NCBI GenBank assembly: GCA_948144175.1
Contig: CANXME010000309.1
Location: forward strand, 1,116,001 to 1,180,000
Length of the DNA stretch: 64,000 nucleotides
Origin: Closterium sp. NIES-65
Lineage: Eukaryota; Streptophyta; Zygnematophyceae; Desmidiales; Closteriaceae
Reading direction: 5' to 3'
Positions 16,876 to 63,400 of the stretch are shown here, piece after piece. A model generated the notes under the pieces. The model worked only from the letters and a program-made list of their open reading frames with translations. It made no database searches and was not told the origin of the DNA. The position numbers were made by a program, and so were the translations under genes. How positions within the stretch are numbered: the stretch's first letter is position 1; each line of letters begins with the position of its first letter.

Positions 16876-19800
16876 TCAGGTAGTAAGCAAACTATTCAAC
16901 CTGGCCACCTCTGCTTTTATCTGTTCATGATAATCTGCATAAAACGCATCATATTCTCCATAATCTACAGCTGCGTTCAGCCTCTCAAGGTAACTCGGGC
17001 GATACGTTACGCGGTGGTAACCAGTCCTGGAAATCCGATCAAAGTCACCAGCATCACCAGAGGATCCCTTGCGGAGGTTCAGGCGAGCAACCTGGTGGTG
17101 CGAAATTGAGGGAGAGTGTGATGGAGGGGAAGGGAGAGTGTGATGGAGGGGAATGGAGAGTGTGATGAGGGGAAGGGAGAGTGTGATGAGGGGAAGGGAG
17201 AGTGTGATGGAAGGAAAGGGAAAGCGTGATGGAGGACAGCAGGAGAGTAATGCTGAGATGACTCTAACATGACTACAACAGAAAGGGCTGAAACCTCACC
17301 TGGTAACCAGACAGCCACACTCTTGTCGCCAGCTGTCAGTCCGAAAAGATCGCCGCTTCACCCTCCTGATCATCAGCCTCATCCTGCCCACCCAGGCACC
17401 TTACCACGCTGCGCCTCCACGTGTTTTGCATGGGAAAGCAAAAACCTCACATGTTACCTTGATGATTCGAATGGGTCGAAACCTCACCTGGTAACCAGAC
17501 AGCCACATCCTTGTTGCCAGCTGCCAGTCCGACACAATCGCCGCCTCGCCCTCCCGGTCGTCAGCCTCATCCAGCCCACCCAATCGCCTCAGCACGTTTC
17601 TCCGCACCACCAGAGGCATCCCCGTGACCAGCCCAGTGAAATGCATCCCCAATCCAGTCTCTGGGTCTCTCCTCTTCAACCCTTTCACCCTCCTCCCCCC
17701 TCTCACATTCCTCCCCTCCCTCTCCCCCTCCTCCCCCGCCCCCTCCACCTCATCCTCCTCTCGAGCCAAGTCTGTCCAGAACCTGACGATTTTGCCGGTT
17801 GTAGGGGCGGTGAGATTTGTCATGTTATCCATCCGATAGCCGACCATTCCAAGCCTGGGCCATGCGAAAAACGCAGAGAGCAAATCCTGCAGCCAATCAC
17901 AGCTCTCGGGCGGCAAATAGTCGTCCTGTAGCAGCACTAGCAGGTCGCCTCGTGCCATCCATGCCAGATCATTATACCCCCGGGAATCGTCCACTGAATG
18001 GGGTAGTACCGGCACGACAAAAATCCCCGGATCGGTTTTGGTCCACATTTCCATCCACTGCCCGAGGGTTTTCTCTGGCTCGAAAACATTTACTAGCAAT
18101 TCTGCCCGAGCACCCGGTATTTTTCCAGTGCCCAGCATCCCATTTGTACACTCATATAAACGCTCCACCAACGGTTTTACCCGCTCCGGAGCCCCGTAAT
18201 ACCGAAGCAAGAAGGTGAAATGCGCCCGAACCTTCGGGTACTGGTCCGGAAACAGGTCCGGATCCTTTTGCCAGACGTAAGGTGGAGCTTCCAGGCCCGG
18301 CCGATCCTCGTACCCAGGATCGAGCCTCTCCCAGTCCATGCACTGAGGCTCGGCACCAGCTGCGGCGGCTACAGTGTGAAACCGAGCCAGAAACTCGTCC
18401 TGCTGTGTCGTCCAGTTGCTATGTGGTAACCGCATGCCACAATCCCCTAAAAGCCTATCTTGAATTCGTCGGAGAGTGGACGATGCTGACGTGGCACGTG
18501 CCAGGCTGGCGTCCCGATCAGATTGCGCGTCAGCGACAAATGCTGATGCGGACGAATGGTCGGGTCCCTCTCGGTCGAACGAGAAGGAGTAGATCTGATA
18601 CCACATGACGAAGGCTTCAAGCCGTGTCTTGTTGGCTGGAAGAAGGAGCGGGCAGGCAACAACAACACAACACGCAAAAAAACAAAGGAGAAGAGAGGGA
18701 GCCGGTTCTTGAGAATTCTCAAAACCAGCAAGAGTTCGCATTTGTGTGCATGTTGACTTTTAAGTCGACTCAAAAATCATTTGTGTACATGTTGAGGAAG
18801 GAATGAAAGTAGTGTTTTGAGTCGACTCAAAACACGGTTCGCATTTGTGTACATGTTGAGGAAGGAGTGATACTAATACTGATGCGCACGAATGGTCGGG
18901 CCCCTCTCGGTCGAACCAGAAGGAGTGGAGCTCGTAACACAGTAGAACGGCTTCGAGCCGCTGCTTGTTAGCTGTGGGGAGGAGTGGGAGAGGGGTACGG
19001 GAGAGGGGTCCCTCTCGGTCGAACCAGGAGGAGTAAAGCTGGTATCACACTAGAACGGCTTCGAGCCGTTTCTTGTTGGCTGTGAGGAGTGGGAGAGGGG
19101 TAGGGGCGGGGAGGAGGAGGAGTGGGAGAGGGGTAGGGGCGGGGAGGAGGAGGAGTGGGAGAGGGGTAGGGGCGGGGAGGAGGAGGAGTGGGAGAGGGGT
19201 AGGGGCGGGGAGGAGGAGGAGTGGGAGAGGGGTAGGGGCGGGGAGGAGGAGTGGGCGAGGGGTAGGGGCGGGGAGGAGGAGGAGTGGGAGAGGGGTAGGG
19301 GCGGGGAGGAGGAGGAGTGGGAGAGGGGTAGGGGCGGGGAGGAGGAGGAGTGGGAGAGGGGTAGGGGCGGGGAGGAGGAGGAGTGGGAGAGGGGTAGGGG
19401 CGGGGAGGAGGAGGAGTGGGAGAGGGGTAGGGGCGGGGAGGAGGAGGAGTGGGAGAGGGGTAGGGGCGGGGAGGAGGAGGAGTGGGAGAGGGGTAGGGGC
19501 GGGGAGGAGGAGTGGGCGAGGGGTAGGGGCGGGGAGGAGGAGGAGTGGGAGAGGGGTAGGGGCGGGGAGGAGGAGGAGTGGGAGAGGGGTAGGGGCGGGG
19601 AGGAGGAGGAGTGGGAGAGGGGTAGGGGCGGGGGAAGGGGATGGGGGATTGATACAAATACTAGTGTCACACGCGAAAGGCTTCAAGGCTCTTCTTATTG
19701 ATCCCCAGGTCCATCCCCAGGTCCATCCCCAGGTCCATCCCCAGGTCCGTCCCCAGGTCCGTCCCCAGGTCCATCCCCAGGTAGGTCCATCCCCAGGTAG

Positions 19801-22270
19801 GTCCATCCCCAGGTAGGTCCATCCCCAGGTAGGTCCATCCCCAGGTAGGTCCCTCAGCTCCCTCAGTCGCCGGTTTTTGAGATTTCTCAAAAACCACCCC
19901 TCCAGCTCCCTCAGTCGCCGGTTTTTAAGAATTCTCAAAAACCACCCCTCCGCCTCCCTCAGTCGCCGGTTTTTAAGAATTCTCAAAAACCACCCCTCCA
20001 GCTCCCTCAGTCGCCCCAGTATGAACTGCCCCACTGCCTCTGGGTTGTTCCTCCTCGGTTGTCTCTGGGTTGTTACCGGTTGTACCCCACTCAACCCCAG
20101 ATCCCACTCAACCCCAGATCCCACTCAACCCCAGATCCCACTCACGGTTTTTAGCGTCCATGGCCGCAGCGGTGGCGTTGGCCTGGGCAGCACTGATCCT
20201 CAGATCTTTCAGCAGCGGGCGGTACCCGTCCAATTCCTTGAGCCGCCCCAGCATGAACTGCCTCACTGCCACTTCTCTGTCCCATTGCTGGTAGATCTGC
20301 AGGGCTGGTGGGGGGGAGGGACGGGGGGGGAAGCAGCCAGTGGCCTGAGCAGCACTGAACCAGCAGGAGCAGCAGGTATCCTCCCAGCACAGCCCCTCCG
20401 CAGCGGCCGGTACCGGTCCAATTCCTTGAGTCGCCCTAGCACGAACTGTCTCACTGCCACCTCCCTGTCCCATTGCTGGTAGATCTGCAGGGCTGGTGAA
20501 GGAGGATTGGGGAGGTGGGAGAGGGGGAGGATTGGGGAGGTGGGAGAGGGGGAGGATTGGGGAGGTGGGGTGCAGGTATCAGCCCACCCAACCCAGGTCT
20601 TCCAATCTACCGCAAGGTACCCATTCCGATCCCTCAGCATTCCTGGAGTTGGATCTGAAAAATTCTGTGCCCCTGCCACTGACCTCCATGGAACCTCTTC
20701 TCGAGCCCCTGAGCTCGAGTGTAGAGCTCCAAACACTCCACAAGCGGCCCTTTCTCCTCCTCCCTCCTCTCCCCCTCTCCCCTCCTTCCCGCCTCTCCTC
20801 TCCTCTCCCCCTCCATCCCCTCCTTTCCCTCCCCGTTCGCCCCTACTCTCCCCTTATCCCGCTCCCGCCCTTCTTTCTCTGCAAGCTTCCTCAGGTCAAC
20901 AGTGGTTGCCTGCATGTCCCTTAGAACCGCAGACGCCGTCTCTACGCTGGGAGCCCTCAGAATCGCGTCTGCTGTCGCTTGATCCACCACCGTTGCCTGA
21001 GAGTCTGCCTTATCCCTCTCCTCGCTCAGTTGCTGTATGGCTCGGTCGAGTACGGTGTTGAGGTGTGCTGCATCCCTCTCTAGCCGCCTGTCCAGGTCTT
21101 GAAGCCAGTCGGCCGTGTCCCGGTTGTGCTGCTGCAGCAGACGCAGCAGTGGGGATCTGGAAGTGGAAGAGGCGAGCAGAGGAGAAGAGCGAAAGGAGGG
21201 ACTCGAGTGTATTTAAGAGACGTGAAAGAAGGAGTGTTTTGAGACGTCTCAAAACATTTAAGAGTATATCGTCTTTCGCAAACCAGTGGGTGGGTGGAAA
21301 TTCATGGAGAAGTTATGGTACATTTCCACTCTTTCCGAATTCTGTCTTCCACCGCCACTCGCCTCCTCTTAGACAGCAAAATAGATAAGTGTATCTTCGC
21401 CTCCTCCTTATCCCCCTTCGTCCCATCTCCCCTTTCTCTCCTCCTTCCTTGCATAGCCCTTGCCCCCATTTCCCCAGTCCCTGATCTCTTCCCAAAACCT
21501 CCTTCCCGCCAGTCACTTCCCACTCCTGCTCCTCACCTCTCACCCAAATCAGGGTACAGCGACCAATCATCATCAGCCACGTCATCCCCTTTGCGTTCCC
21601 AGCCCGAATCTGCACGAGACGCAAAACTTTGGTCCCCAAGCTCGCTGTCAAGGAGGGTGGAAAGGTCGTCGCGTGCTGACGTGGATGAAGGTGATTGGAC
21701 AACGGGGGGTGATTGAGAGGAGGAAAGGGAGGAGGAGGGGGAGGAGGACGGGGAGGAGGAGGTGGGGAATGACGAGGGTGAGAAGGCGGAGTGGATGGGA
21801 GAGAGGAGGAGGTGGAGGAAGGCAAAAAGGAGAGCAGCGAAAATCCCAACGGCTATTTTGCCATATGTGCTGCTGGGTTGTAGTAGCCTTGCTGGGATGG
21901 CATCAATCAGCCTGGTTAAGTCCGGTTGAGGTGAGATTCTGCTCGGTAATAGCCTTGTTAGGGTGAGAGATAATTGGCTGATTATAAGAGTGAACCAGCT
22001 GATCATATGGTTGAAGCACGGGTTGCTACCGCCGCTACCTCTGCCTCCTCCGCCGATGCTGCTGCTGCTGCTGTTGCGGCTACTGTCACCATTGTTGCTG
22101 CTGATACCGCTGCTATTCACGTTGCTGACGCCGTTGCTGCTGTTACGGCTGCTGCTGTAACTGTCGCCATTGCCGCTGCTACTGCTGCTGTTGCACTTGA
22201 CGCTGCTACCGCTGACCTTCTCAGCTGCTGGTCGAGAGGCCCGCGATGGCTCCTTCGCTTTCCGCGGCAT
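16876..22270 (-). CDS. Putative Golgi type II glycosyltransferase-like protein
   Basis: Minus-strand multi-exon gene model. Exon 1 (22270-21537) encodes a Ser/Asn-rich cytosolic and stem region with one clear membrane segment (YGKIAVGIFAALLFAFLHLL). Exon 2 (21156 to about 20845) is coiled-coil (LLRLLQQHNRDTADWLQDLD, LERDAAHLNTVLDRAI). One or two further exons lie at about 20745-20600 and 20487-20150 (IYQQWDREVAVRQF..GRLKELDRYRPL). The large catalytic exon (about 18465-17436) has FPDQYPKVRAHFTFLLRYYG, ARAELLVNVFEP, RGYNDLAWMARGDLLVLLQDDYLPP (GT-A-like acidic motif QDDY) and GGLDEADDREGEAAIVSDWQ. The last exon (about 17106-16876, stop 16876-16878) ends DYHEQIKAEVARL. A lumenal sugar transfer role is inferred from TM-stem-catalytic order. 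The exact family is not recognised, and joining of all exons into one gene is an inference. Confidence 0.6.
17270..17400 (-). repeat. Partial tandem copy of a glycosyltransferase exon end
   Basis: About 130 bp closely match 17470-17610, the end of the catalytic exon (GGLDEADDREGEAAIVSDWQ to GYQVRFRP), and lie in the following intron. The copy contains an in-frame stop (FSD-stop-QLATR), so it is unlikely to be used as coding sequence. Confidence 0.8.
18556..19083. repeat. Three copies of an 80-bp intron module
   Basis: The module reads GGTCCCTCTCGGTCGAACNAG, then GGAGTAG..CTGGTATCAC, then GGCTTCGAGCCGTTTCTTG. Copies are at about 18570-18645, 18897-18975 and 19008-19083, with a truncated copy at 19662-19700. 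The module lies in the large intron of the glycosyltransferase gene, so the apparent upstream extension of the catalytic open frame (to 18741) is probably repeat rather than exon. Confidence 0.7.
18704..18835. repeat. Cluster of three TTTTGAG-type palindromes
   Basis: Imperfect copy with AATT centre at 18704-18726, near-perfect copy with TCGA centre at 18758-18775 (one mismatch pair), and a perfect 24-bp palindrome with TCGA centre at 18812-18835. The last two are embedded in a duplicated flank: TTCGCATTTGTGTGCATGTTG at 18735 and TTCGCATTTGTGTACATGTTG at 18838, with another CATTTGTGTACATGTTGAGG between. Confidence 0.9.
19089..19635. repeat. 33-bp minisatellite, about 16-17 copies
   Basis: Unit GTGGGAGAGGGGTAGGGGCG plus GGGAGGAGGAGGA (33 bp), with two units shortened by 3 bp and changed at one base. 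It lies in the large intron of the glycosyltransferase gene. The unit length is a multiple of three, so it gives long open frames on both strands, which are not taken as genes. Confidence 0.95.
19700..19860. repeat. Short tandem repeat CCATCCCCAGGT
   Basis: About eight units of 10-12 bp (CCCCAGGTCCAT), later expanding to 16 bp (AGGTAGGTCCATCCCC). Intronic. Confidence 0.9.
19860..20015. repeat. Three palindromes in a 48-bp tandem repeat
   Basis: The unit CTCCCTCAGTCGCC plus a 24-bp palindrome plus ACCCCTCC is present three times, followed by a fourth CTCCCTCAGTCGCC. The 24-bp palindromes are at 19872-19895, 19920-19943 and 19968-19991. Each departs from perfect symmetry at one position pair, and the centre is GAGAATTCTC-like. 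The CTCCAGCTCCCTCAGTCGCC flank also matches exon sequence (LKELD..RP region, near 20230 and 20420) of the same gene. Confidence 0.9.
20150..20500 (-). repeat. Duplicated exon of the glycosyltransferase gene
   Basis: Two diverged copies of an exon coding IYQQWDREVAVRQF-LGRLKEL with its acceptor (AGCCCTGCAG) are at about 20305-20150 and 20487-20395. Both keep open frames and splice-like ends, so it is unclear whether one or both are used. Confidence 0.65.
21235..21256. repeat. Perfect 22-bp palindrome, ACGT centre
   Basis: A TGTTTTGAGACGTCTCAAAA-type perfect palindrome in intron 1 of the glycosyltransferase gene. The string ATTTAAGAG occurs on both sides (21211 and 21256). Confidence 0.95.
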
Positions 22271-23676
22271 CTCGCTTCAAGAGATGCTTGTGGCTGAAAG
22301 AGAAGGAGCGAAACGCCAGAAAGAGATGCTTGTGGACTCTCCGGACTGTCATTCACTTCTCCAAATTCCCGAATTTCACTCGGCGTTCGAGTTTCTAGAC
22401 GTCTCAAAACTCCAGTTTTCTTTCATTGTGCAGCATTGCTTCTCTTGCGCGCGATGGCCACATCGCGTTTCCGGGTACGGCGGAGGTGCGGGCGGCGCGT
22501 TGTGACTACTGGGGGCGGCTCATAAGGCGGACGGAGAGCGTGTTCAAGTGCTCTCACACACGGTTATCACTCGCTTGAAGCTACTTTATTTCAGCCGCGC
22601 GGGAATGGAGTATAAGGCGTGTGAAAGGCGCTCGCGTTCACACGCTATGCTCTACCTCGTAGTCGACGATTCTGACTTAGATAGAAACGGCATGAAAGCC
22701 GCATACGCGCAACGGTACATTGGCGAGAAAAGACCTCATCGCGGCGCAACGCTACATTGGTGAGGCAGAAATTCCTAAACGGCTGCGAATGTATGAGATG
22801 GCGAGCTGAGCTGTGCTTGGTGTGTTGGCTGGGAATGTGGAGCAAAGATATTATCTAGTTTGTGGCTGGGCATACACCCAAGGTTCAGTTTGGTGCCGTG
22901 GAGTGCGAAAAACCGAAGGTCTTGGCAATACAATGCTTGCTTTTCAGCATCACACATGGACAAACGTCTTTATCTGGTAATATACTCGTTATTGCGTCTG
23001 CTTTTATGGAGATTTCCGAGGTTGCGAAATCTCGGAAAGCACAACCCCTACCGCGCGTAGTGTTCCTCCAAAGCTGTGTTCGACCTTTACGAATTCTTCA
23101 TTTAGATTTGCGAAAGCGTTACCGGGTCAGTCTCACAGGTTCGGCTCCTTCGGAGAAACTAGTACACGCCCTCGTGTAGCCGTTGCAGCCGAAAATCTCA
23201 AGGCTCGATTTTCCTTGGGGATCGCAACGCAAGTCGATTTCTGTTCCAATCGCTGTTCCTCCGCAATGCAGCTACACCATGGCCATAGGTTGGCCTTCAC
23301 CTCTTTCACCTCTTTTCATGGCCGAATCCTTGCCACCATGTGAATCGCTCTGTTCCAGTTGCTGGAGTGATCAACAAGTGACCATGTTGTGATTGTTAGC
23401 GATCATCCTCTAACGGACCAGTCCAGCTCGCTGGAAAAGCGATAAGAACCGTTTTGTGAGAGCTGCTTTTCGATTCGCAAGAATCGGTCGTTTACGTGTT
23501 TGCACTTGGTGCCAGAAGGACCCCTGCTGCATCGCCTTTTGGAAAACCTAGATCCGTCGCTACTGCTTGTTTCCCAAAAATAAACCCAGCATTGACAGGT
23601 GACTTTTGAGTCAACTTAAAAGCGGTCGTTGACTCCAGAGATTTCTCGAAAGTGTTTCCGAAAAATATAACAAGCA
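22271..23676. promoter_or_regulatory. Divergent intergenic region, 1.4 kb
   Basis: This lies between the start of the glycosyltransferase gene (minus) and the TGD4-like gene (plus), so it should hold both promoters. No convincing open frame is seen. It contains an imperfect ACGT-centre palindrome (22391-22410), a second imperfect one (23603-23622) and the repeated string AGAGATGCTTGTGG (22280 and 22322). No clear TATA box could be assigned. Confidence 0.5.
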
Positions 23677-26600
23677 TTGGCAGCTATGCTGCCGAATCGG
23701 GCGATCATCGCGTCGCAGTTTTGGAACCACGAGTGCGGCTCGGCGCAGTCACTCGAAGCCGTGGTCCCCGCTGTCCCGAACGAGCCGCCTTCGACCGGCA
23801 TTCACCTGGGTAGCGGAATCGCGCGATCACAGCAACTGCTGCTCCTGCAGAAGCTCCTACCAAGTACCCCTCCTTTCTCCCTAGCCTTTCTTCCACTGAG
23901 CCGTTTTTCTCTTAGCCATTCTCCCTCTTTGCCGTTACCACCCATTACCTTCCTTGCACTCAGCCGTTCTCCCTCTTAGCCTTCCTTAAAGTAATCATTC
24001 GCTCCGTTTGTCCCTTCCTCCCATTCCCGCATATCGAACCCGTGGACCCCTTGCACTTCTTTTCTCCCCCATTCCAATCCATCATCTACCTCCTATCCGC
24101 CACCGCTACCCTTCCTAGGGTCAGCCGGAAATCCGTCGTCTCATTCACAAGCGGTCATCCGTCTCCCTATCTCTCCTCTCGTCCTCTCATTCTCTTTCTC
24201 TTTCTCGTTCTCCCTATCCGGTCGGCCTCTCACTTTTCTTTCACTCGTGCCCGCCCCGTCCTTAACTCCTCTCTTCCCGGGCGACAGTCCCCTTCACGCC
24301 ATCCTATGCTGCTGACGTGGACGATCAAGGTGGATGGGTGGTCGACCGAGTGCTATCTGGTGTGGGCGGCAGGGACTGGTATGTACAAACCCTAGCTCCA
24401 ACCCCTTATCTTACCATATCGTGCCATGTCTTACCATATCTTATCATATCTTACCATATCTTAATCATATCTTACCATACCTTACCAGATCCAACCGTAT
24501 TATACAACTTTTCAGCATATGTTGCCATCTCTTGCCATATGTTGCTGACATACGTTGTATCTCGCCGTGCTGCTATCAGGTGGGCAACAGTAATGGGCCG
24601 GCTGAGAGTCCAGCGCATGTGGAGAAAGCATTTCCAGCAGCAGACCAACACAACCCTAACCGCCAATGCTCCCCATACAGCAGCAGCAGCAGCAGCAGTG
24701 ACTGATACCGCCACAGGCAACAACAGCAGCAGCGGAAACAGCAGAGCTAAGGACTGCCCCAGTTCCTCCTCAGGATGGTTCCAGGATCCTTCCATGTATG
24801 CGCTCTCGGCCCGTACGCGCATCGCGCTGGGGAAGCAGACTTGGCTAAGCGGCAGTGCTGAGCTAAGCACGCTTGCAGGCCTGGCATCCGCACTTCAGGA
24901 CAAGATAATGGGACGACAAAGGAGGGAAGGTGGTGCTGTGACAGGGAGTGAGGAGGGGAGTGGGGAGCGAGGAGGAGAGGCTTCGGGGTTCAGAGGCTTT
25001 TTCTCGCTACGCCATAAGGTACATGGGGGGCTCTTGTGGTTTCATACAAAACAAAAATATAGGGGAGGGGAGGAGGTGGATGGGGACGGTGGAGGGGTGG
25101 TTTCAGGGTTCAGAGGCTTTGTCTCGCTACGCCATAAGGTACACGGGGGGCTCTTGTGGTTTCATACAAAAAAAAATATTTAGGGGAGGGGAGGAGGGGG
25201 ATGGGGAGGGCGGAGGAGAGGCTTCGGGGCTCAGAGGCTTTTGTTTCGCTACACCATAATGTACATTGGGGGTACTTGTGGTGGCTAAGTGGACTTTTTT
25301 TAGTAGGCTAATAGATCGACTCGTTACACGCGGTTTCTACATTCAGAGGCTTTGTCGCGCTACGCCATAAGGTACATTGGGGGCTCTTGTGGTTTCCTAC
25401 ATAGGGGAGGGGAGGAGGTGGGTGGATGGGGAGGGTGGAGGAGAGGCTTTGGGCTTCAGAGGCTTTGTCTCACTACATCATATGACATAAGGTACGCAGG
25501 GCTCTTGTAGTGGCTAAGAGGATTTTTAACTCGACACAATATTGGCTACTGATAGTCCATTGAACTTTTTCTGTTAGATGGAAGCTCTTCTCATGGACCA
25601 GGATTTGATAGGCCGAGCAGGGTGGGGCGAGCAGGGTGGGGCGAGCAGGGTGGGGCGAGCAGTGTGGGGCGAGCAGGGTGGGGCGAGCAGGATGGGGCGA
25701 ACAGGGTGGGGCGAACAGGGTGGGGCGAACAGGGTGGGGCGAACAGGGTGGGGCGAACAGGGTGGGGCGAGCAGTGTGGGGCGAGCAGGGTGGGGCGAGC
25801 AGTGTGGGGCGAGCAGGGTGGGGCGAGCAGGGTGGGGCGAGCAGTGTGGGGCGAGCAGGGTGGGGCGAACAGTGTGGGGCGAACAGTGTGGGGCGAACAG
25901 TGTGGGGTGAACAGTGTGGGGCGAACAGTGTGGGGCGAACAGTATGGGGCGAACAGTGTGGGGCGAACAGTGTGGGGCGAACAGTGTGGGGCGAACAGTG
26001 TGGGGCGAACAGTGTGGGGCGAACAGTGTGGGGCGAGCAGTGTGGGGCGAGCAGTGTGGGGCGAGCAGGGTGGGGCGAGCAGGGTGGGGCGAGCAGGGTG
26101 GGGCGAGCAGGGTGGGATCGTGCTGGCCCCTACGTGGACCCTTTTTAGAATACCTGTAGATCCTTCTTGTGCCTTCCTTCCCTCCTTTTCCCCGCCGCGT
26201 TCCCTCTTCCCGTGTTTCCGGCACGATTTGATTGCACCAGCAGGGTGGGGCGAGCAGTGTGTGTGTGGACCGCGCTGGCCGCTACTGGACGCTCGTCAGT
26301 CAGTCTGTAACACCACCATTATCCTCCTCCCCTGCCCTGTGTTCCCACATCCGTTCATTCTTTTCTAGATGAAGGGCCACGATTTGATAGCGCGAGCAGG
26401 GTGGGGAGAGCAGTTTGTGCACCGTGCTAGCCGCTACTGGACGCTCCTCACTCAGCTTAAACAGCTTTGTTTGCCCTCCCCCTCCCACGCAGATGAAGGG
26501 TCACGATTTGATCGCCCGAGCGGGTGGGGCGAGCAGTGTGTGGGCCGCGCTGGCTGCTGCTGGACTCCTCTAGAACAGATGTAGACGGTAGACCCATCTC

Positions 26601-28989
26601 CTGCTTTCCTTTCTTCTCCCTGTTGCGCTCCCATCTGCGCTTCTCCAGATGAAGGGTCACGATTTGATTGCACGAGCAGGGTGGGGCGAGCAGTGTGTGG
26701 ACCGTGCTGGCCGCTACTGGACGCTGCCCCGTGCGCTCTCCCTTGACTTCGCCTCCCTGGTCACAAGAGAAGGGCTGCGCTACCGCTTCGGCCTGCAGCA
26801 CGTGGGAGGGAAACCAGAGGTGAGACTAGAAAGCCTGCTGCTGCCCCGTGCGCTCTCCCTTGACTTCGCCTCCCTGGTCACAAGGGAAGGGCTGCGCTAC
26901 CGATTCGGCCTGCAGCACGTGGGAGGGAAACCAGAGGTAAGGCTAGAAAGGCACAGGCAGGCATGTTGCGAGGGGAAGTCTTTGACACGCAGACCGTTGT
27001 GAGAAGAGGTGGCGGCACAAAGTAGCGTTTAGAGCACCTTCCTGACCCTCTCATCCCCCATCGCGCTCTCCCTCCCCCCCGTCTCTCCCTCTCCCCCGTC
27101 TCTCCCTCCCCCCCGTCTCACCCTCTCTCAGGAGAGTGCAAGGCCAGGCCACGGGGAGGCGAGGGTGGTGCCGTGGGGGGCGAGGGCGGGCACGCGGGCA
27201 CAGGCAGGCATGTCACTGGAGGGGAAGGTGACTGTGTGGAAGGACCGATGCGAGAAGAGGCGGCGACAGAAGGAAGCTGCCAAAGCTGCTTCCTCCGTGC
27301 CCTCTGCCTCGTCTTCCTCCTCGTCATCATCATCAGCAGCAGAATTGAAAGCACCGCTCCCATCCTCGTCGTCCTCCTCCTCATCCTCCTCCTCTTTTTC
27401 CTCCTCCTCATCCTCCTCCCAATCTCTTCATCCGCATTCTCCCACCCCTTCATACAACTGGCTGGCTGCTCGTCCACGCATCACCCTATCTGCCGTGCTC
27501 GGTGAGTTCCAATGCTGCTGTACTATCCTCTCTACTCCTCTCAACTCCTCTCTATTCCTCTCTACTCGTCTCCACTCCTTTCTACTCCTCTCTACTCCTC
27601 TGCTCTCTTGTCTCCTCCTCCTACCCCTTCATACAACTGGCTGGTTGCTCGTCCGCGCATCACCCTATCTGCCGTGCTCGGTGAGTTCCAATGCTGCTAT
27701 ACCATCCTCTCTACTCCTCTCTACTCCTCTCTACTCCTCGCTACTCTCTACACCCTCGTCTCCCTCGTCTCCTCCTCCTACCCCTTCGTACTACAACTTG
27801 CTGGCAGCTCCTTCGCGCACCACCGTCTCAGTCAGCCGTGCTCGGTGAGTCCCACCTTCCCTGCTCTTGAGGCATGTTGCTGTCTCACGTGCTTGCACCG
27901 GGATCTCAATCATCAACAGCACAGTTCTTGTATTAGTCGACTCAAAAACATTCATACTCCCCTCCCCCACCCTCTCCCCTCCTCCCCTTTCAGGGGGTCT
28001 GGCTTCCACCGAGATCTCAACCAGCAGCAGCAGCAAAAGCAGCAAAAGCAGCAAAACCAGCAACACCAGCAACACCAGCAACACCAGCAACACCACCACA
28101 ACGCAAAGCCAGGCATCCAGCTCAAGGGTGAACGGAGCAGGGACAATCGGGACGGAAGACACAACGGGGTCCTTCCGTCTCTCCTCTTTCCGTCCCTCCT
28201 CGCTTCAGCTCTCCTCGCTCTCCACCGATCTCTTTGCGTCGGTGGCGGTAACCGCACAGCTGGGCATGTTTGAGCGAGCTCTTTTCGACCACACTCTCCT
28301 CAACGCCACGCTCACCTGTGGCTCCCTCTCTGCTGCTGGCTACAACCTCTCCCAACCTGCGTCCGCCACGTCAGCGCTGGCGCCAGATGCCACGTCAGCG
28401 GTGACGTCAGGTGCCACGTCAGAAGGTTGGCGGAGAGAGGAGCGGGGTGCGCCGACGCTCTCACTGTCATTTCAACAACAGGTGTGTGTGACTGAACCGA
28501 GTGGGACATGTAATGTCAAGTACGGATGAATGATTGTTGCTCTTTTCTTGGCCCCCGCTCATTCCTTGCCCCCGCTCCTGTTCCTTGACTTCTCGTTTGC
28601 CCACCCCCTCCTCTCCCTCCCAACCTGTCTCGCCCCACTCGTTTCCCCTTTTCTGCAGATTTTTGGCCCAGTGAGGGGTCGCTGGGACGCATGCATGGGA
28701 GTGGATGCCAAGAATCCCCTCGCTGCTCCCACCCTGCTCGATTCGACCTATGCCTTCTATTCCTTCCCTCCCCCCCCCACCTCACGTGCAGATTTTCGGC
28801 CCAGTGAGGGGTCGCTGGGACGCATGCATGGGAGTGGATGCCAAGAATCCCCTCGCTGCTCCCACCCTGCTCGACTCAACCTACGCCCTCGATTGCTCCC
28901 TGGAAAGGCTCGGAGCTGCCAGGCTCGTCGTCTGGTATTCGCCAACAAGACGGGAAGGCATGGCGGAGGTTCGGTTGCTGGACCGGTAG
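23677..28989 (+). CDS. TGD4-like: TGD4-like chloroplast envelope lipid-transfer protein
   Basis: Plus-strand gene of about eight exons. Exon 1 (23677 to about 23868) has the N-terminal pattern FW..SLEAVVPAVPNEPPSTGI..GIARSQQL. Exon 2 (about 24291-24378) has PFTPSYAADVDDQGGWVVDR. Exon 3 (24580 to about 24930) has WATVMGRLRVQRMW. A 25-bp microexon (one of five copies, 24994-25483) precedes exon 5 (about 26649-26818, GWGEQCVDRAGRYW, LRYRFGLQHVG). Exon 6 is 27131-27500 (SLEGKVTVWKDR, SYNWLAARPRITLSAVLG). Exon 7 (about 27993-28481) has LFASVAVTAQLGMFERALF and LSLSFQQQ. Exon 8 (28793-28989) has IFGPVRGRWDACMGVDAKN and ends VVWYSPTRREGMAEVRLL. TGD4 in plants is an outer-envelope protein moving ER-derived lipid into plastids. 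The family is recalled from these motifs. Poly-Ser and poly-Gln/Asn tracts make it longer than the land-plant protein. Confidence 0.72.
24994..25483 (+). repeat. Five tandem copies of a 25-bp microexon region
   Basis: The unit is an acceptor-like CAG, the 25-bp exon AGGCTTTGTCTCGCTACGCC plus ATAAG, a donor-like GTACA, then GGGGGCTCTTGTGGTTTC and an intron-like G-rich spacer. Exon copies start at about 24994, 25114, 25233, 25346 and 25459, with period about 115-120 bp. Copy 3 has lost the donor (ATAATG) and copy 5 has an insertion, while copies 1, 2 and 4 keep both splice signals. Confidence 0.8.
25579..26710 (+). repeat. Tandem partial copies of TGD4-like exon 5
   Basis: The exon start (AG then ATGAAGGGTCACGATTTGAT) and the following GCAGGGTGGGGCGAGCAGTG appear at about 25579, 26219, 26369, 26493 and 26649. 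Each is preceded by a pyrimidine-rich acceptor-like tract. Only the last copy (26649) continues into the full exon. The second half of that exon (CCCCGTGCGCTCTCCCTTGA onward) is again duplicated at 26725-26817 and 26842-26937. Confidence 0.85.
25617..26115. repeat. 14-bp minisatellite, about 36 copies
   Basis: Unit GGTGGGGCGAGCAG with variants GGTGGGGCGAACAG and TGTGGGGCGAACAG. The unit is identical to part of TGD4-like exon 5 (coding AGWGEQ) and expands directly from the first partial exon copy at 25579. The long frames through it (14-residue protein period) are by-products. Confidence 0.95.
27602..27850 (+). repeat. Two extra copies of the TGD4-like exon 6 3' end
   Basis: The exon end (ACCCCTTCATACAACTGGCT to the donor CTCGGTGAGT) and the following CTACTCCTCT intron repeats recur at about 27620-27690 and 27778-27850. 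All three copies keep the GTGAGT donor. Confidence 0.85.
27897..28035. repeat. Palindrome half between copies of exon 7 start
   Basis: AGTCGACTCAAAAAC (27935-27949) is a one-and-a-half arm of the palindrome family. The exon 7 sequence CACCGAGATCTCAACCAGCA (28007) is preceded by a near copy CACCGGGATCTCAATCATCA at 27897, so the palindrome lies between the two. Confidence 0.75.
28659..28760 (+). repeat. Partial copy of TGD4-like last exon
   Basis: About 95 bp (IFGPVRGRWDACMGVDAKN to TLLDSTYA) with its own TGCAG acceptor, 134 bp before the complete last exon (28793-28989). It runs into intron-like sequence with no obvious donor. Confidence 0.85.
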
Positions 28990-29854
28990 TTGTTGCTATG
29001 ACGTACGAACCTCAGTGGGTATGGTACGTCCTATACACTACACTCCACTATACTGCTGCTGAGGTTCTCCCGCGGTGCATGTAGCTAGTGAAGCTTGCTG
29101 CAGGTTTTCCCAATTGTTACTGCCCCTCACAAATCTCCATATGTATGGTAATTGTACTCAGATTGCTATTCCCATTTGTCTGACCTACAAGTTTGTGCCT
29201 GATTCTATAGGTGGCGGATACGGTAGGTAGGGAGGGAACTGAGTATAGGATTGCTTGCTCGAAGGACTAATCATTGGCTATCCATTGGTTTGAAACGTTT
29301 CAATGAAAGTGTGTTACGATCCTGAACCATTCATTATAGGATAAATAAGTCCAACAAGAGTAATGTCCTGAACCGCTTACAGTAGTTCCAAATTAGTCCA
29401 CCTCACTCACTGCCCTAATTGCCCTAAACCCTTCCAGTGAAGCATCCCTATCATTGATCTTCTATCACACTACACTGTCACTGGCCCATCTGACAGACAT
29501 CATGATGCATACAACCTTGAATTGTTCCTCCCTATTTCCAGGATATTAGCCTGGACGGCATTTCCACTAAAAGAGAATGTCCCTGCAACGTTTACTGTTG
29601 CACAGGAGACTCCAGAAATTTTGACTTGATGAATTGCGACCCTGTAAGGTCACGCTATGTAACAGGTTTCCATCTGCATCACAAGTCACGCGCCTTCATC
29701 CACTGCACATACCACCAGTCTCCATCCACTTCACATCTTCAGATCTTCCTCATCGTCGTTACAATTGCATGGCTCTCAAACCTGCATCACGCGCTTCCTA
29801 GATCCTCCTCTCCTCAGTGCCACACACCAGGCAGTCAGAGGGCGAGTCAGTGAG
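28990..29854. other. Intergenic region between convergent genes
   Basis: Lower-GC sequence between the stop codons of the TGD4-like gene and the CDPK gene, presumably holding both 3' untranslated regions. No supported gene, RNA or repeat seen. Confidence 0.6.
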
Positions 29855-35843
<5,989 letters not shown>

Positions 35844-49831: not shown

Positions 49832-49952
49832 TGAGAAATCTGAAACGAGAATGATTGACTGAGGAATGAAAGTGGTACAAATATGCAACCCTAGAAATGT
49901 GTACCCCATATACGCTACCCCACTACACCCTACACAACATTATAATTAGACA
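49832..49952 (-). repeat. Copia F 3' LTR
   Basis: 121 bp with TG...CA ends, TSD TGGAG on its left, polypurine tract (CCCCCATAGG on plus) on its right. Confidence 0.93.
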
Positions 49953-50161
49953 CACCCCCATAGGCAAAGTGGGGGAGAACAAGGGGTCACAAGACCGGTC
50001 AAGCAAAGCAAAGCAAAGCTCAGGGTGGATCACAAAGTCACCACACTGTCCGAGCACAAGTTCAAGGCCAGAAGGCCAGTTCACATGCAGGAGCACATAT
50101 AAATATATAAAGGCTAAACAAGTAAGAGCAGGAGTATATATATGTGACAGTACAAGCAAGG

Positions 50162-56100: not shown

Positions 56101-56178
56101 CTGCAGGTCATATACCAAGACCTCAAAGTCAATGGCCCGACCCTCAGCGTCAAAAGCGAGAACCCTGGGGGTAGCCAT
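50162..56178 (-). pseudogene. Copia F gag-pol, heavily mutated
   Basis: Gag starts at the ATG ending 56178 (MATPRVLAFDAEGRA). Recognisable parts are the Gly-rich spacer (55120-55430 region), zinc knuckle, protease LDSGASRSFF (about 54685), pre-integrase, integrase LHSDRGGEFSSG (about 53810), RT YVDDLVCA (about 51140) and RNase H. There are frameshifts near 55720, 54960 and 52850, stops in integrase (RS-stop around 53860 and G-stop at 53988), and a TAG replacing Trp in GSGFVS-W (50550). A 130-bp tandem duplication is present at about 51940-52160. Confidence 0.9.
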
Positions 56179-56229
56179 GACAGCAGTAGACTAGCAGTGC
56201 TAACTGTAGGAGAGGGGCAGTGCAGTGAG

Positions 56230-57200
56230 AGAAGCGCTGCTCTCACCAGACAGGGCGGTTCGGGCAGCTCGGCAGCACAGCAGCTCGGCAACACGGCGGC
56301 TCGGGCGACTCGGACGGCTCAACAGCAACTGCGGCTCTACGGCACCAGCAGCTCGGCTCCTCAGCCGCTTAGGCGGCTCGGGCGGCTCGGGCGGCTTGGG
56401 CGGTTCGGGCGGCTCGGGCGGCTCGGGCGGCTCAGGCGGCTCGGGCGGCTCGGGCGGCTCGGGTGGTTCGGGCAGCTCGGGCGGCTCGGGCGTCTTGGGC
56501 GGAACGGGCGGCTCGGGCTGCTCGACTCGGTTGCGTAAGGCGGCAGAGCCGCTGGTAGGGCGACGGGGCCGCAAGGTAGGTGGCGGGGCCGCAGTGAGAG
56601 GGGTGGCGGGGCCACAGCGAAGGGCGGCTGGGCCGCAAGGTAGGCGGCGGGGCCGCAAGGTAGGCGGCGGAGCCGCAAGGTAGGCGGCGGGGCCGCAAGG
56701 TAGGCGGCGGGGCCGTAGCGAGAGGGGCGGCGGGGCCGCAGCGAAGGGCGGTGGGGCCGCAGCAACAGGGGCGGCGGGGCCGCAGCGAAGGGCGGTGGGG
56801 CCGCAGAGAAGGGCGGCGGGGCCGCAACGAAGGGCGGCGGGGCCACAGCGAAGGGCGGCGAGGCCGCAGCGAAGGGCGGCGGGACCGCAACGAAGGGCGT
56901 CGGGGCCGCAGTGAAGGGCGGCGGGGCCGCAGTGAAGGGCGGCGGGGCCGGAGCGAAGGGCGGCGGGGCCGCAGCGAAGGGAGGCGGGGCCGCAGCGGAG
57001 GGTGGCGGGGCCGCAGTGAAGGGCGGCGGGGCCGCAGCGAAGGGCGGCGGGGCCGCAGCGAAGGGCGGTGGGGCCGGGTAAGGGCGGCGCCGGGGCCGTA
57101 GGGCTAGGCGACGGGGCCGTAGGGCTAGGCGACGGGGCCGCTAGGGCGATGGGGCCGCTAGGGCGACGGGGCCGCTAGGGCGGCGTGACTAAGTCGCTAG
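56230..57200. repeat. GC-rich tandem-repeat leader of Copia F
   Basis: GGCGGCTCGG-like units near gag (56250-56530), then about 22 copies of a 21-bp unit GGGGCCGCAGCGAAGGGCGG(C) (56570-57080), then GCTAGGGCGACGGGGCC units (57100-57190). Long overlapping frames on both strands are not taken as genes. Confidence 0.85.
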
Positions 57201-57322
57201 GGCGGCTCGACGAGATGAAAGAGAGGAGCGCAACTCGGGCGGAGCGCGCTCCGGGCAGGAAAAAAAAAATCGACTTGGTGGGCCCTAGGCACAGTTCCCA
57301 GTAGGGAACCTGCTCAATACCA

Positions 57323-57443
57323 TGAGAAAACTGAAACGAGAATGATTGACTAAGGAATGAAAGTGGTACAAATATGCAACCCGAGAAATGTGTACCCCAT
57401 ATAGGCTACCCCACTACAACCTACACAACATTATAATTTGACA
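57323..57443 (-). repeat. Copia F 5' LTR
   Basis: 121 bp, with the primer-binding site on its left and TSD TGGAG (57444-57448) on its right. Confidence 0.93.
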
Positions 57444-57555
57444 TGGAGTCACGTTCCGCCGTGAGCGTTGCAATTTCGAGCGCCGAATCTTCAAGTTGGC
57501 GCACGAGACGGTCGAGCTGCTCCTGCGTCAATGTGGCGAGCGTGAATTCGGCCAT
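57444..57555 (-). pseudogene. Chromovirus E gag N-terminus
   Basis: Starts at the ATG ending at 57555, MAEFTLATLTQEQLDRLV, a short coiled coil like that of C gag. It is cut at codon AERDSM by Copia F. 57556-57736 is the leader with the primer-binding site next to the LTR. Confidence 0.8.
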
Positions 57556-57736
57556 GGCGGGGGTGACGGGCGAGCTCAGCGAGAGCCTCGGTCGTGGCCG
57601 TGCATGCTTACGAGAGAGCACTACGAGCGGCAGTGCTGTGTCGATGAGAGACGTCTACCCCCCAAAAAATTGAAATAGTGGGGAAGCGAAGGTGTGGGTG
57701 CGGTCCGAGAGGAGATCGTAGGCTTTGATAACCAAA

Positions 57737-58079
57737 TGTTACGAGTGCAATTGAGTGGACGAACAAGAATTGCACTATCGAAGCAAGAGTACAATGAGCG
57801 AAGGCATGAGCGAAGAATATATAGCGAAACTACAGTGGTAACAGTAATGGACTGTGGTTGTCGCGCGACGGGCCTGGGACTGAGGTTGGGAAAAAGTGTC
57901 GAAGCGGAGGCCCGGAGCGCGGGTTACCCGCCGAGCCGTGAGGTCGGGGTGCGATGTGCGAAGGTGGCGGGCGGATTGTCGATGCTAGGGTGGTGAGTGG
58001 TAACGGCGCTGACTGTGGTGCTACAGTGATGTACGTGTTGAGCAGGGATGCGAAGTAAGGAAAAGGAATTTTCCTTACA
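57737..58079 (-). repeat. 5' LTR of chromovirus E
   Basis: 343 bp, ending at TSD AGACT (58080-58084). A TATA-like GCTATATATTC on the minus strand (about 57815-57825) is a candidate promoter reading into the element. Confidence 0.92.
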
Positions 58080-58084
58080 AGACT

Positions 58085-58423
58085 CAACCTCAACATCAGC
58101 GTTTCCGTTAGCAATTCAGTATTGTGCAATACAAGGCTCTTTGCAAAGCTGTCTCATGGTAACGAGGTATTCTGGGGCGAGTACATCAGACCTCCGCTTT
58201 TTCTTTGTTGGTTTTGGTTCTTTGGTCATCCTAATCACCCAGCAGCAAATTTCACCTTGTTCCACTCTCGCCAGCGCGCGTCGTAATAATGCTCCAACTT
58301 GAATTTATCGTTATTTTTGCTCTAGTTGTTTTTCTTCATGGAAGCTGCATGGCAGCGGTTAGTAGACTGCTTTTTCGCGTGTCTAGGTGGAATCCTCTAC
58401 GTGTAACATAACGAGTGCTTGCA
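58085..58423. other. Gap between chromovirus E and O-fucosyltransferase exons
   Basis: Host sequence with moderate GC and no gene recognised. It should contain the promoter, the 5' untranslated part or an early intron of the O-fucosyltransferase gene. Confidence 0.4.
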
Positions 58424-60347
58424 GGCGTACGATGGTAATATAATGAAATCTTCAATCTTGAGCAAATATGTCGCTAACGCTCAACGGTCAGCTGAGTTAA
58501 GGGTAAGCATAATTTCTTTCTGCGTGCTGTTTCGCCTGCACAGTTCACCTCATCCTTCCGCAGGAACGCTTACTAGATTATTCCCCTCCGGGAGAAACGA
58601 CTGTAAAAAAATGTGGCCGACGTTTTCATGATTTGATTCATAGGCTACGTGAGTGTTAGTTTTTCCTATCGTTACTACTATGCCGTACGGAATCTCCTCA
58701 TATGCCTTTTGCAGCTCCCTACAAGCCGACTGGTTCATTCCTTGTCACCGTTTGCAATGGCGGTCTCAATCAACAGCGAGGAGCAATTGTCAATGCCGTT
58801 GTCCTAGCACGCTTTCTAAATTTGACACTTGTTGTGCCATTCTTGAAAGCCCACCCTGTCTGGGGAGATAGCAGGTGAATCGTCTGCTTAGTCATTCAAT
58901 TTGATCTCCTGACCGTCATCCATGGGCAAATAACAGTTGAATCAACAGCTCGTTTCAAGATTTATTCAACCTGACGAATTTTGAGTCGGTGCTGAAAGGC
59001 TTCGTCAAAGTGGTTACAACCATCCCTGAAGAGGCAAAACAACTTCCCATTCATGAATTCAGACCTCCTGAAGATGCTCTGGCAACGTTGGATTGGTAGG
59101 GTGTAAGATTTGTTGAATGCCTGTGCCAGCATTCGTGTAATTTCTCCTGAGCACAGGTACGTGGAGAACGTTAAGCCTTCAGCCCAAAACAGCAACATTG
59201 TTCTACTAAGTCCCTTCGCACGGCGCCTTGGAAACGTTCTTCCAGAATCGTGGCAGCTATTCCGGTGCAAGGTCAACTATGAGGTGCGCCTGTTCTGCTC
59301 TGTGCATTGTATTGGCTTAAATGGCTACGCTTGTAACATTTGATCTGTAACAGGGCCTCAGATTCGTGAATTCAATTCTTTTACTGGGAAGAAAGGTCAT
59401 ACGGAGAATGAAGAAGATTTCATCCAACTTCGTGTCATTGCATTGGAGGTTCGAGACTGATGCTGTTGCCTATTCAATGTGTGAATTCGGGGGTGGAGAG
59501 AAGGAGAAGCTGGCTCTAGAGGTATGGAACTATTGTCCTATACCCAGTCTATAATCTTTCTGCCCAGTCTAAAATGTTTCTGCTTGCTGCGATCTCATCT
59601 ACTGTTGGCAGGAGTACCGAGTAGAGCACTGGGACAGAGCAACAAGGAAGCTTCGTGAAGCACTAAATCCTGCTAGCCAGCGTGTACTTGGTCAGTGTCC
59701 AATGAGGGCCATCGAGACGGGCATTTTTATGCGAGCAATGGGAGTTCGCAAAAGCTCAGCCATCTACGTTGCCACATTAGAGGGACAGCTTTTTGGTGGT
59801 AATTATAGCCTTCAGTCTCTGCGATCCATGTTCCCAAATGCTCTGACCAAACGGGACATTCTGACACGGGTACGAGTACTAACAAGGCACACCACGCCCC
59901 CAGTGTCCACACTATTGCTGTGATCACCTCTAATTTACATTGTATATGCAGGAAGAACTTGGTCCGTTGGAGGAGAGGGCATCTGCACTAGCAGCTATTG
60001 ATTACATAGTCTCCACAGAAAGTGGCATCTTCATTCCAACTGCAACGGGAAATTTTCCAAGTTTTGTTATTGGGCACAGGTGATGTGTATGCTCACTCAT
60101 TATGTCGCTGCCTTGTGTTGCGGTGGTCCTTCTGACTTGTGGAAAGTACAGGCTTTACTATGGGCGGAGGAGTGTACAACCGGACTTGAAAAAACTGGCA
60201 TCCTTATACTCATGCCACCACACGTCCAAGGAGCGTGAGTTGCTTGAGCTCGTCAGAGCTGTCCATGAGGACCGCTTTATTTACCACGGGAGGTCAGCAA
60301 CAAGCAACTTCTTTGCAAACCCAGAAGAGTGCCTATGCCCAGCCTGA
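58424..60347 (+). CDS. O-fucosyltransferase family protein (GT65-related)
   Basis: Multi-exon plus-strand gene. Tentative small exons are 58424-58502 and 58562-58641. Clear exons are 58714-58874 (PTGSFLVTVCNGGLNQQRGA, VVLARFLNLTLVVPFL, the family's GG-NQQR motif), about 58950-59098 (LFNLTNFESVLKGFVKVV), about 59104-59284 (NSNIVLLSPFARRLG), about 59355-59521 (KISSNFVSLHWRFETDAVAY, the LHxRxExDMxAxS motif), about 59612-59868 (IYVATLEGQLFGGNYSLQSL), 59952-60079 (DYIVSTESGIFIPTATGNFP) and 60152-60347 (stop 60345-60347). Members sit in the Golgi or ER and transfer fucose. Here LHWRFETDAVAY departs from the usual LHLRYExDMLAF, so the exact activity is uncertain. The start codon was not identified. 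The 5' end may lie left of the chromovirus. Confidence 0.82.
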
Positions 60348-60448
60348 ATGTTAACCCACAAGCTTCATGTTGCATAAATCATTTGTAAATGTAACTAATT
60401 ACTGCTGGAATTTTGTGACAAGAGAAACTTTTTATTGGCAATCATGAA

Positions 60449-63400
60449 TCATGGTTGTAGGATAGCCTGCCCAATCACATCCTTTACAAGCAATTGCGAG
60501 TCAATAAAATTGTCATACCCATGGATAGCCACGATGGTCCTTCCCATTGCATTCACAACCCGTCCACCTTCTTTCACTTCAAACGAGTCTTCTGCACTAA
60601 ACCGATGCAAAACATTCCCTTGCTGTGCATCCTCTATCTTCAAGAAATCTATACCTTCTTTCAAACGCCCTGCATCACAACAATCACTCATTGATTAGGT
60701 AGGAGTTAAGAGAAACAGCCTGGTAAAAAGGCAAGCCGATGCATCAATGCTTTAGATAGCTGCTGCAATGCTGCTTACCTGATCGTACGAGATGGTTCAC
60801 AACAGCTTCATCGCTTCCCTCCAGCGCTATACAATCCTCTGGTAGCCTCTCAAAGTCTTCTATGACCTGTATCAAGAACTCTGGCACCTGGCTCATAGTC
60901 CCCGCCACAAAGCCGGATGTGATTATTCGTGAGTTTGCGAGCGAGAATGCCAGGCGGGTGCCATAACATGCCGCAAGGCGCTTGTGCTCTGGAGGCAGGA
61001 AACGGATGCCATGTGCTGGGTATGTGGTCGAGCCCTGGAAATGGAACATGAAGAGCCACGGAGGGTAAAACGGAACAAGTAGCATACAAATTCAGCCAAA
61101 TACACACAGGTGTATGTGACATACGCAGCCCTTCTGACCCACTTCCCTTTCCCCAATGCACCAGCCTGGGATGCTCCCAGTAAGAAAAAGTACCATGCAG
61201 TGATAAGACATGTCATTGGGAGACGTTCTTGAGGTTTGGAAAAACACATGATAAGGAAACTTACCGTGTAGAGATGAAACGACATGTCGTTGAGTGTAGG
61301 AAAAGGATTGGCAAGAAAGAGAACATCTGTAGGGTCAGTGAGGATGACGGTTCCCTCAAAGTCCAGCGAGCGCAGGAAGAGGTGGAAGGCACGATAGCGC
61401 AGGTTGGTGGCATGCGCTGCTGCCCACTTGCCTGGAAAGGGTGGGTGGGATAGGTCAAGGGGTTCCAGAAAAGCATTATGAGCTTGATGATGCAGGTTGA
61501 TGGCATGTGCTGCTGCCCCACTTGCCTGGAAACGAGTGTGAAAGGTCAAAGGGTTTCAGAAAGGCAAAATGAGCACCACGGCAGCGAAAGACAGAATGAG
61601 TGGGATATGTTACGGGGATACAGAACTCAGAGTAAGCAAGATAATTCAGGCTGATTGGAGGCATGCGGTGGCAGGTTTTGTTTGTAGCTCGGCCTGGTAA
61701 AAAGAAGCGTCGCCAGAGTTGCCCGGGAAAATGGGTTGGTTTGATTGACAAGACTCGTGGGGTTTGGATAGAAGACATGATATGAAGAGAAGAGGAGGTT
61801 GAGGGCGTGGGGGTTGACAAGACATGACAGGAGGTACAGACTGACCGACCTTCTTCTGGTGAGCAGAACGTTTGCAGTGCAACCCCCGGTTGGTGCTTCC
61901 ACCCCTGTGGCCACTCCTGCATGAAAAACACCAGCAGGGAACCACCGTGTACCCCCTCACCCCCACCGTCACTCCCATCCCCTCCTCCACCGCCACCGCT
62001 AATGCTACCGCTGCTGCTTCCCTCTAATACGAATTTTCTAAATGACGTGGCGAGTGCTGATAGGTTGGCAGCGGAAAGGCCGAGCGCGAAGGAGAGGACG
62101 AGGTTGGCGGGGAGCGTTTTGGGAGTGAGCTTGAGGGGGGTCGGGGAGAGCAGCTTGCGCAAAACAATGTCGTCCTCAGCCACCCCCTCACAGGAGCGCA
62201 CCCGCTCCACTGAGGGGTCTGATACGTGCCAAGAGAGAAAAGGGAACGGAGTTGGAGGGGGGGGGAGTGAGCTTGACGGGCGTCAGGGAGAGCAGCTTGC
62301 ACAACACAATGTCGTCCTCTGCGACGCCCTCACAGGAACGCACTCTCTCCACTGAGGGGTCTGACATGGCACGCATGGGCGAGGGGGGGAAGGGAGGGGT
62401 GGAAGGCGAGGGGAGTGAGCTTGAGGGGCGTCGGGGAGAGCAGCTTGCGCAGCACAATGTCGTCCTCTGCGACGCCCTCACAGGACCGCACTCTCTCCAC
62501 TGACGGGTCTGGCATGGCGAGGATGGGCGAGGGGAGGAGAGCATGATGGAGTGGGCGAGGATGGGCGAGGGTGGGAGGATGGAGTGAGCATGAGGGGCGT
62601 CGGGGAGAGGAGCATGCGGAGAACAATGTCGTCCTCTGCCACTCCCTCACAGGACCGCACTCTCTCCACTGATGGGTCTGGTACAGGTCAACAGGGAACA
62701 CGGAATGGGGTTGGGTCCGAAAGGGGGGAGGGGGGAAGGGGAAGGGGAGATGAGCTTGCTCACATGACCGCACTCTCTCCACTGAGGGGTCTCCGCACTT
62801 CCTCACAGGACCGTACGCTCTCCACTGAGGGGTCTGGTACGGGTCAACAGGGAACACGGAATGGGGTTGGGTCAGGGAGGGGGACGATGAGAAGGGAGGG
62901 AAGTTTGTGCAGCAGCACGTCGCGCTGATGGGTCTGTTTGAAGAAGTGTTTTGAGACGTTTTTTGAGACGTCTCAAAACGCTTCTTCAATCACGGGACGA
63001 TGAGAAGGGAGGGAAGATTGTGCAGCACAACGTCGCGCTGATGGGTCTGGCAATCACGGGCGAGGGGAGGAGTGGAAAAATTCAAGGAAAGGGAGGGTTG
63101 GGGGAGGTCGAAGGTGGAGGTGGTGGGGTCGGGGGAACGGGAGGGAAGGGGGAAGGAGCGAGAGGAAGGAGGGGTGTTGGGGTATCGATTGCAGGCTCAA
63201 CGCTTCATTTCCCCTTCCCCTCCCCCCCTTTTCCCCTTTCCACCCCCCTCCCCCTCCCCATACCTCCCCTCTCCCCCACCCCCCCCGTTTCCAACCCCCT
63301 CCCCGTCCCCATACCTTTCCCCCCCCCCCCCCTACCCCCCACTCCACCCCCCAAAAAACATCTCACAATTCACGACAGCTACGCCTTCTGCTGAAGATCC

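Follow-up and report, generated by a model that had tools for sequence, protein, structure and literature searches.

Support for an origin of dispersed short palindromes in Closterium from the tips of Penelope-like retroelements

Introduction

A 64,000-nucleotide stretch of the Closterium sp. NIES-65 genome (C309:1116001-1180000, henceforth the window) carries a family of short palindromes in which the arms TTTTGAG and CTCAAAA enclose a four-base, mostly self-complementary centre. What are these palindromes, and how did they come to lie in host genes? A first-pass annotation of the window took them for an undescribed, hairpin-forming mobile element and set them apart from transposon terminal repeats. 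We report here that the motif is the terminal sequence of retroelements that we take to be Penelope-like elements (PLEs), contrary to that distinction; the proposed mobility stands, but the stand-alone element does not. We consider it likely that the palindromes are ultra-short, two-ended insertions of PLE tips in which two complementary DNAs (cDNAs) were joined through the palindrome, an origin supported by the comparisons below and a joining step that we infer.

Results

Abundance and distribution of the motif

Searching the window for TTTTGAGNNNNCTCAAAA with up to two mismatches returned 15 sites where 0.11 were expected and where the richest of 100 dinucleotide shuffles held 2; with up to three mismatches the count was 17 (expectation 1.58, shuffle maximum 6). 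Every place listed in the first-pass annotation carried the motif, some of them a few bases off, and the listed 62943-62984 belongs to a longer inverted repeat of 52 bp (62938-62989). The annotation had also proposed counting the motif across the whole assembly (874,075,685 bp in 2,400 contigs, the one assembly behind all genome-wide results given here), where TTTTGAGNNNNCTCAAAA occurs exactly 30,327 times and the reversed pattern 4 times; TCGA forms the centre of 13,080 exact sites and GCGC that of 5,851. The family is thus dispersed and non-random, as claimed, and the excess over shuffles in the window together with the genome-wide count against the reversed pattern rules out a chance origin. 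Redundancy of the assembly may inflate the genome-wide counts: L073 (C182) and L074 (C1052) have 5 kb in common at 99.98% identity and in opposite orientation, and are either haplotigs or assembly redundancy.

Nine perfect palindromes with arms of at least seven bases occur in the window, four of which belong to the family. The centre shows little variation, being TCGA in 26, ACGT in 10, GCGC in 8, AATT in 3 and something else in 10 of 57 non-duplicate exact sites. Absence of the motif from long terminal repeat (LTR) elements, another observation of the first-pass annotation, was confirmed in a sample of 264,000 bp (C6:40001-140000 and C309:1016001-1180000). LTR-element bodies, delimited by searching with the LTR-element proteins of the window and merging matches across gaps of up to 1.5 kb, cover 87,738 bp of this sample and contain none of its 85 sites at up to two mismatches and none of its 47 exact sites.

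Viral spread was considered and rejected, as 10 IMG/VR stretches contained GTTTTGAGNNNNCTCAAAAC a single time each, a frequency judged, with no control made there, to be at chance level. Healing by telomere repeats was another reading considered. When other proteins were searched with a composed query for palindrome-derived peptides, none of the 20 candidates reached E ≤ 10. A literature search, with most subscription papers beyond reach, found none that describes palindromes of this sort in Closterium.

A Penelope-like element carries the motif at its ends

An ACGT-class palindrome of 42 bp occurs 36 times, with flanks that end raggedly around CACGTG. Its 25-nt half has 237 copies on one strand and 197 on the other (control, 0), and C73 holds two such halves, inverted and 3.65 kb apart. 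This pair led to a 4.2-kb retroelement with a reverse transcriptase (RT) open reading frame (ORF) and two pseudo-LTRs (pLTRs) of about 600 bp that are 97.2% alike. Each pLTR opens with the palindrome. The left end also has a short inverted tail, through which the two ends form an inverted repeat of 34 nt, and the whole element is surrounded by a direct repeat that is perfect over 43 bp. The RT matched 39 proteins at E ≤ 0.001, including proteins of four Closterium strains, and one of the 39, a distant relative with RVT_1 and GIY-YIG domains, aligns to the C73 locus at 28%. The RVT_1 match of the C73 RT itself is weak (E 0.0017, below the cut-off), while telomerase TERT is the best match of its predicted fold (mean pLDDT 94, E 1.5e-9). 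We take the C73 retroelement to be a PLE.

RT matches across the genome numbered 121 scored among 272 candidates, and RT copies lie 3,628 bp apart on C95 and again on C2081, as expected of tandem or partial-tandem elements. We compared about 750 bp downstream of 16 RT matches, 13 of which are 51-59% identical to the C73 RT and 3 of which, of an array type, are 38-41% identical. The motif was found in all 13 of the former, about 335-400 bp past the RT match: 11 times exactly, once with one mismatch and once with two that alter both arms symmetrically. Its centre in these PLEs, which are copies and in some cases close kin, is TCGA in six, AATT in four, and GCGC, GTGC and ACGT in one each. In the array-type PLEs, none of the three stretches read has the motif at up to three mismatches, and it could lie elsewhere in these longer elements. 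Such distant relatives (RT 37-41% identical to that of L077) stand in head-to-tail arrays on C919, C2347, C969, C927, C614 and C714, with periods of about 7,977, 5,996, 6,020 and 8,900-8,940 bp, and these arrays may be telomeric or satellite-like.

Solo palindromes match pLTR starts

The arms of solo palindromes were compared with both sides of the PLE motif, a comparison of short arms with only 14 PLE copies. At a score of at least 4, 42 of the 152 arms (76 sites) match a pLTR start of their own class and 5 a pLTR start of another class, whereas none of the 152 matches the ORF-end side. By site, both arms match a pLTR start at 11 of 76 and one arm at 20 of 76. Some arms continue into pLTRs: that at C6:100101 follows L091 for 16 bases and that at C10:472603 follows L077 for 24 bases with one mismatch. 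In the window, the left arm of palindrome 21220..21256 matches, over 17 bases, the start of the pLTR in the L077 PLE, and that of palindrome 23604..23621 matches a PLE pLTR start over 8 bases. Since arms match pLTR starts and never the ORF side, the assignable solo copies are pLTR tips in head-to-head orientation rather than copies of the junction between ORF and pLTR. A PLE origin of the solo palindromes is well supported, and their centre classes stem from several PLE lineages. The constant arms and varying centre described in the first-pass annotation were borne out with this qualification, that the variation is small and limited to a few self-complementary centres, which reflect these lineages.

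Direct repeats flank the palindromes

At many motif sites a local sequence, X, is present twice, once on either side. These flanking direct repeats, absent from the first-pass annotation, mark the palindromes as insertions, and the sites look like insertions with long and variable target duplications. Because tandem arrays raise the control, junction tests without array masking are weak, and tests confined to the window are weaker too. Masking of arrays with 2.6 copies or more removed 29 of the 85 sites and left 31 exact sites in 26 loci. A junction repeat scoring at least 8 was found at 21 of these 26 loci (23 of the 31 sites), as against 7.2% of 2,000 random positions scored alike, and at 29 of 45 loci when all sites with up to two mismatches entered the masked test. 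Without masking, the same score was reached by 40 of 47 exact sites on C6 and C309 (X of 17-163 bp), by 19 of 21 in pieces of C9 and C10 that were the first places listed and not a random draw (11-71 bp), and by 21 of 28 in pieces selected by the 42-bp core (17-118 bp). Over the 80 exact sites with a score of at least 8, some of them in arrays, the median length of X is 35.5 bp and the range 11-163 bp.

In clean two-copy cases the second X continues into native sequence and no second palindrome follows, which suggests that the palindrome arrived with or after the duplication, not before it. At 32904-32933 the insertion occupies one unit of a tandem array and the adjacent unit has an empty site. 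X and palindrome also occur together as arrays, in effect palindromic minisatellites, at C6:108027, C6:131439, C10:378176, C16:110025, C18:9243 and C562:80735, with example periods of 37, 53, 42, 64, 63 and 45 bp.

Palindrome architecture

Symmetry extends past the 18-mer at 86% of the 57 non-duplicate exact sites, by two bases at 60% and by three at 40%. At the first base, left and right arms agree at a rate of 0.74 within a site compared with 0.36 between sites (76 sites). Arm lengths are unequal between the two sides at several loci, for example at window position 21237. Exact outer ends and target duplications of fixed length, traits of miniature inverted-repeat transposable elements (MITEs) and DNA transposons, were not found: the ends are ragged and X varies from site to site. 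ACGT-class arms repeatedly have CACGTG at their outer end, separated from the core by 12 bases that vary (L077 170-203, L049, L061, L063, L071 and L072). In the cores of the PLEs themselves (n = 14, 6 distinct), 98.1% of cells pair and three of nine pairs change on both sides. This covariation lies above shuffled and slid controls on most measures, with 81 of 500 shuffles reaching the count of further pair types. Palindromy itself looks conserved in these cores, of which only six rows are distinct.

Window sites and host genes

A minus-strand gene at about 17.0-22.0 kb matches a Closterium protein of Naga37s-1 at 85% identity over 93% of the query and a protein of Yama58-4 at 92% identity over 25% of the query; the window is accordingly Closterium nuclear DNA. 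Six palindromes (18707-19971) lie between exon matches of this gene that end at 18633 and start at 20147, and the palindrome at 21237 is flanked by two further exon matches. A 9-bp repeat, ATTTAAGAG, flanks the latter palindrome (21211-21219 and 21256-21264), with a score under the threshold. The palindromes at 33701, 33910 and 35623 adjoin pieces of a protein kinase ORF, as judged by eye from the ORF list. The gene space of the window (17000-38000 and 61400-63100) contains many local tandem duplications of partial exons, with or without a palindrome at the junction.

Table 1. Motif sites in the window and the repeats beside them (window coordinates; X, local sequence duplicated on either side).
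Feature	Position	Junction or detail
Palindrome, AATT class, 1 mismatch, intron of the ~17.0-22.0 kb gene	18707..18724	Junction repeat not found
Palindrome, TCGA class, 1 mismatch	18758..18775	X copies 18739-18756 and 18778-18795 either side
Perfect 24-bp palindrome, TCGA class	18812..18835	X copies 18778-18811 and 18842-18875 either side
48-bp tandem array, 3.5 copies, AATT class	19851..20015	Near-perfect 24-bp palindromes 19872-19895, 19920-19943, 19968-19991
ACGT-class palindrome, long left arm	21220..21256	Perfect 22-bp part 21235-21256
Half-decayed palindrome, ACGT class, 2 mismatches	22392..22409	Junction repeat not found
Palindrome, TCGA class (TCAA), 1 mismatch	23604..23621	X copies 23568-23598 and 23653-23683 either side
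Half palindrome, TCGA class, 3 mismatches	27930..27947	27891-27921 resembles 28002-28032; does not exceed control
Two adjacent decayed palindromes (30278-30295, 30301-30318)	30278..30318	X copies 30214-30277 and 30311-30374
Near-perfect 30-bp palindrome	32904..32933	Inserted in one tandem-array unit; empty site in neighbouring unit
Decayed palindrome, ACGT class, 2 mismatches	33701..33718	Junction repeat not found
Half palindrome, TCGA class, 3 mismatches	33910..33927	Tandem-copy junction in kinase-exon region, X 33740-33914 and 33931-34109
Decayed palindrome, AATT class, 2 mismatches	35623..35640	X 35544-35619 and 35645-35720 (partial kinase exon)
52-bp inverted repeat, ACGT class, second core-like piece inside	62938..62989	X 62881-62936 and 62994-63049

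Discussion

How might a PLE leave behind nothing but its tip, doubled and between two copies of the target? We propose that the target would be cut or broken with a long and variable stagger, and that the PLE reverse transcriptase would extend both 3' ends on element RNA, starting about 10-40 nt from the tip. Both cDNAs would then finish in the same self-complementary sequence, and because they do so they could anneal through the palindrome and be filled in, giving X - inverted pLTR tip - pLTR tip - X as the product. Were one of the two cDNAs full-length, the outcome would be an entire PLE whose 5' end bears an inverted tail. The palindrome would in this way act as a self-annealing joint that stays palindromic while its centre drifts. 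PMC11167929 shows that in a lizard both strands are cut and extended by a PLE, which begins reverse transcription inside the RNA, and states that further steps of PLE integration are still to be validated.

Several results weigh against this proposal. A junction repeat above threshold is missing at 5 of the 26 exact loci outside arrays, and neither arm matches a sampled pLTR start at a score of at least 4 at 45 of the 76 solo sites. Allelic empty sites did not appear: the contig pairs C182/C1052, C10/C1610 and C1165/C1809, compared over 5, about 3.8 and 0.5 kb respectively, did not differ in their number of sites. Used as a test of age, the identity of the X copies showed no correlation with palindrome decay (rho -0.03, n = 30). 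Target repeats of tens of base pairs exceed the 8-10 bp reported for rotifer Penelope elements. Both ends were read for a single full PLE, the C73 copy; no GIY-YIG domain was found at E ≤ 1 in the six ORFs of that one damaged copy, and the search of L077 for a hammerhead ribozyme gave no Rfam match at E ≤ 1. Since endonuclease-deficient PLEs are known (described in the accessible text of PMC3846280), GIY-YIG is not required for PLE membership.

The same PLE origin could also be combined with a different way of making the palindrome, namely self-priming (snap-back) of a single cDNA at its palindromic end. PLE cores are indeed self-complementary, arms agree better within a site than across sites, and self-priming has been suggested for the head-to-head junctions of rotifer PLEs, whose pLTRs have palindromes at their 5' ends (PMC3846280, in part). 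However, snap-back sits poorly with the unequal arms at several loci such as window 21237 and by itself leaves the direct repeat X unexplained, and we regard it as unlikely, although it deserves serious consideration. Alternatively, host end joining at staggered breaks might take up free PLE-tip DNA as filler, with the PLE enzymes inactive at the site, which would amount to tandem duplication by paired nicks or by filled overhangs. Ragged outer ends, the highly variable length of X and the frequency of tandem duplications in gene space with or without a palindrome would all suit such a process, and filled-in overhangs do give small tandem duplications (PMC8355091, in part). The filler would nevertheless have to be, at tens of thousands of places, the same short terminus of a single element class with the tip at its centre, and a flanking repeat of this kind also surrounds the full PLE; filler capture therefore seems to us improbable.

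That solo copies far exceed RT matches (30,327 compared with 121 scored) might point to an independent MITE-like palindromic element captured by PLEs. Yet four centre classes are in place at the pLTR starts of PLEs, ragged outer ends and a variable X are unsuited to a transposase, and PLE lineages that share arms with solo copies of their own have in part been seen already, all of which makes an independent element very improbable. A regulatory or structural host site under selection in gene space would account for LTR bodies without the motif, but it is disfavoured by the junction repeats, by identity with PLE ends and by the insertion at 32904-32933 beside an empty unit, and we give it almost no credence.

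Joining of two cDNAs through a PLE-tip palindrome, the reading we prefer, has partial counterparts elsewhere, each described here from the accessible part of its source. PLEs of Adineta vaga resemble those of Closterium in their pLTRs, head-to-head inverted arrangements, target duplications and pLTR 5'-end palindromes (there 18 and 38 bp), but their target duplications are 8-10 bp and their copies few, and mass insertion of the palindrome by itself is not described in that part of PMC3846280. The RT of the Anolis PLE PAc extends both strands, starts within the RNA and leaves a 30-40 bp tail, as in our proposal, whereas PAc has a GIY-YIG domain and a hammerhead, neither of which turned up in the single damaged copy examined from Closterium (PMC11167929). 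In mammals a telomerase-type RT likewise adds sequence at internal breaks, but it adds telomere repeats and not a retroelement tip, and the portion of PMC2246262 at hand describes no palindromic joint. The short palindromic repeats of Volvox carteri, also a green alga, are selfish, about 50 nt long and found in introns and intergenic DNA, but they are mainly organellar, with nuclear copies called inert, differ in sequence and are not linked to PLEs in the available text of PMC2670323. Tandem duplications from overhang fill-in similarly duplicate a short stretch at a break, but the part of PMC8355091 at hand has no fixed palindromic insert between the copies.

More tentatively, and with more doubt than confidence, we suggest a broader role in which the PLE-tip palindrome is a self-annealing joint, synthesis mostly halts at 10-40 nt, and tens of thousands of patches, each with a tandem duplication, would make PLEs a major local duplicator of exons and introns. 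Inside genes, insertions of this kind bring duplications tens of base pairs long and are therefore a plausible source of the partial-exon duplications in the window. Because one genome offers more than 30,000 exact cores, at least four classes and covarying centres, the joining step is testable by sequence alone. In Closterium the motif serves as a marker for PLE ends, and the palindromes hint at how PLEs join two newly made strands.

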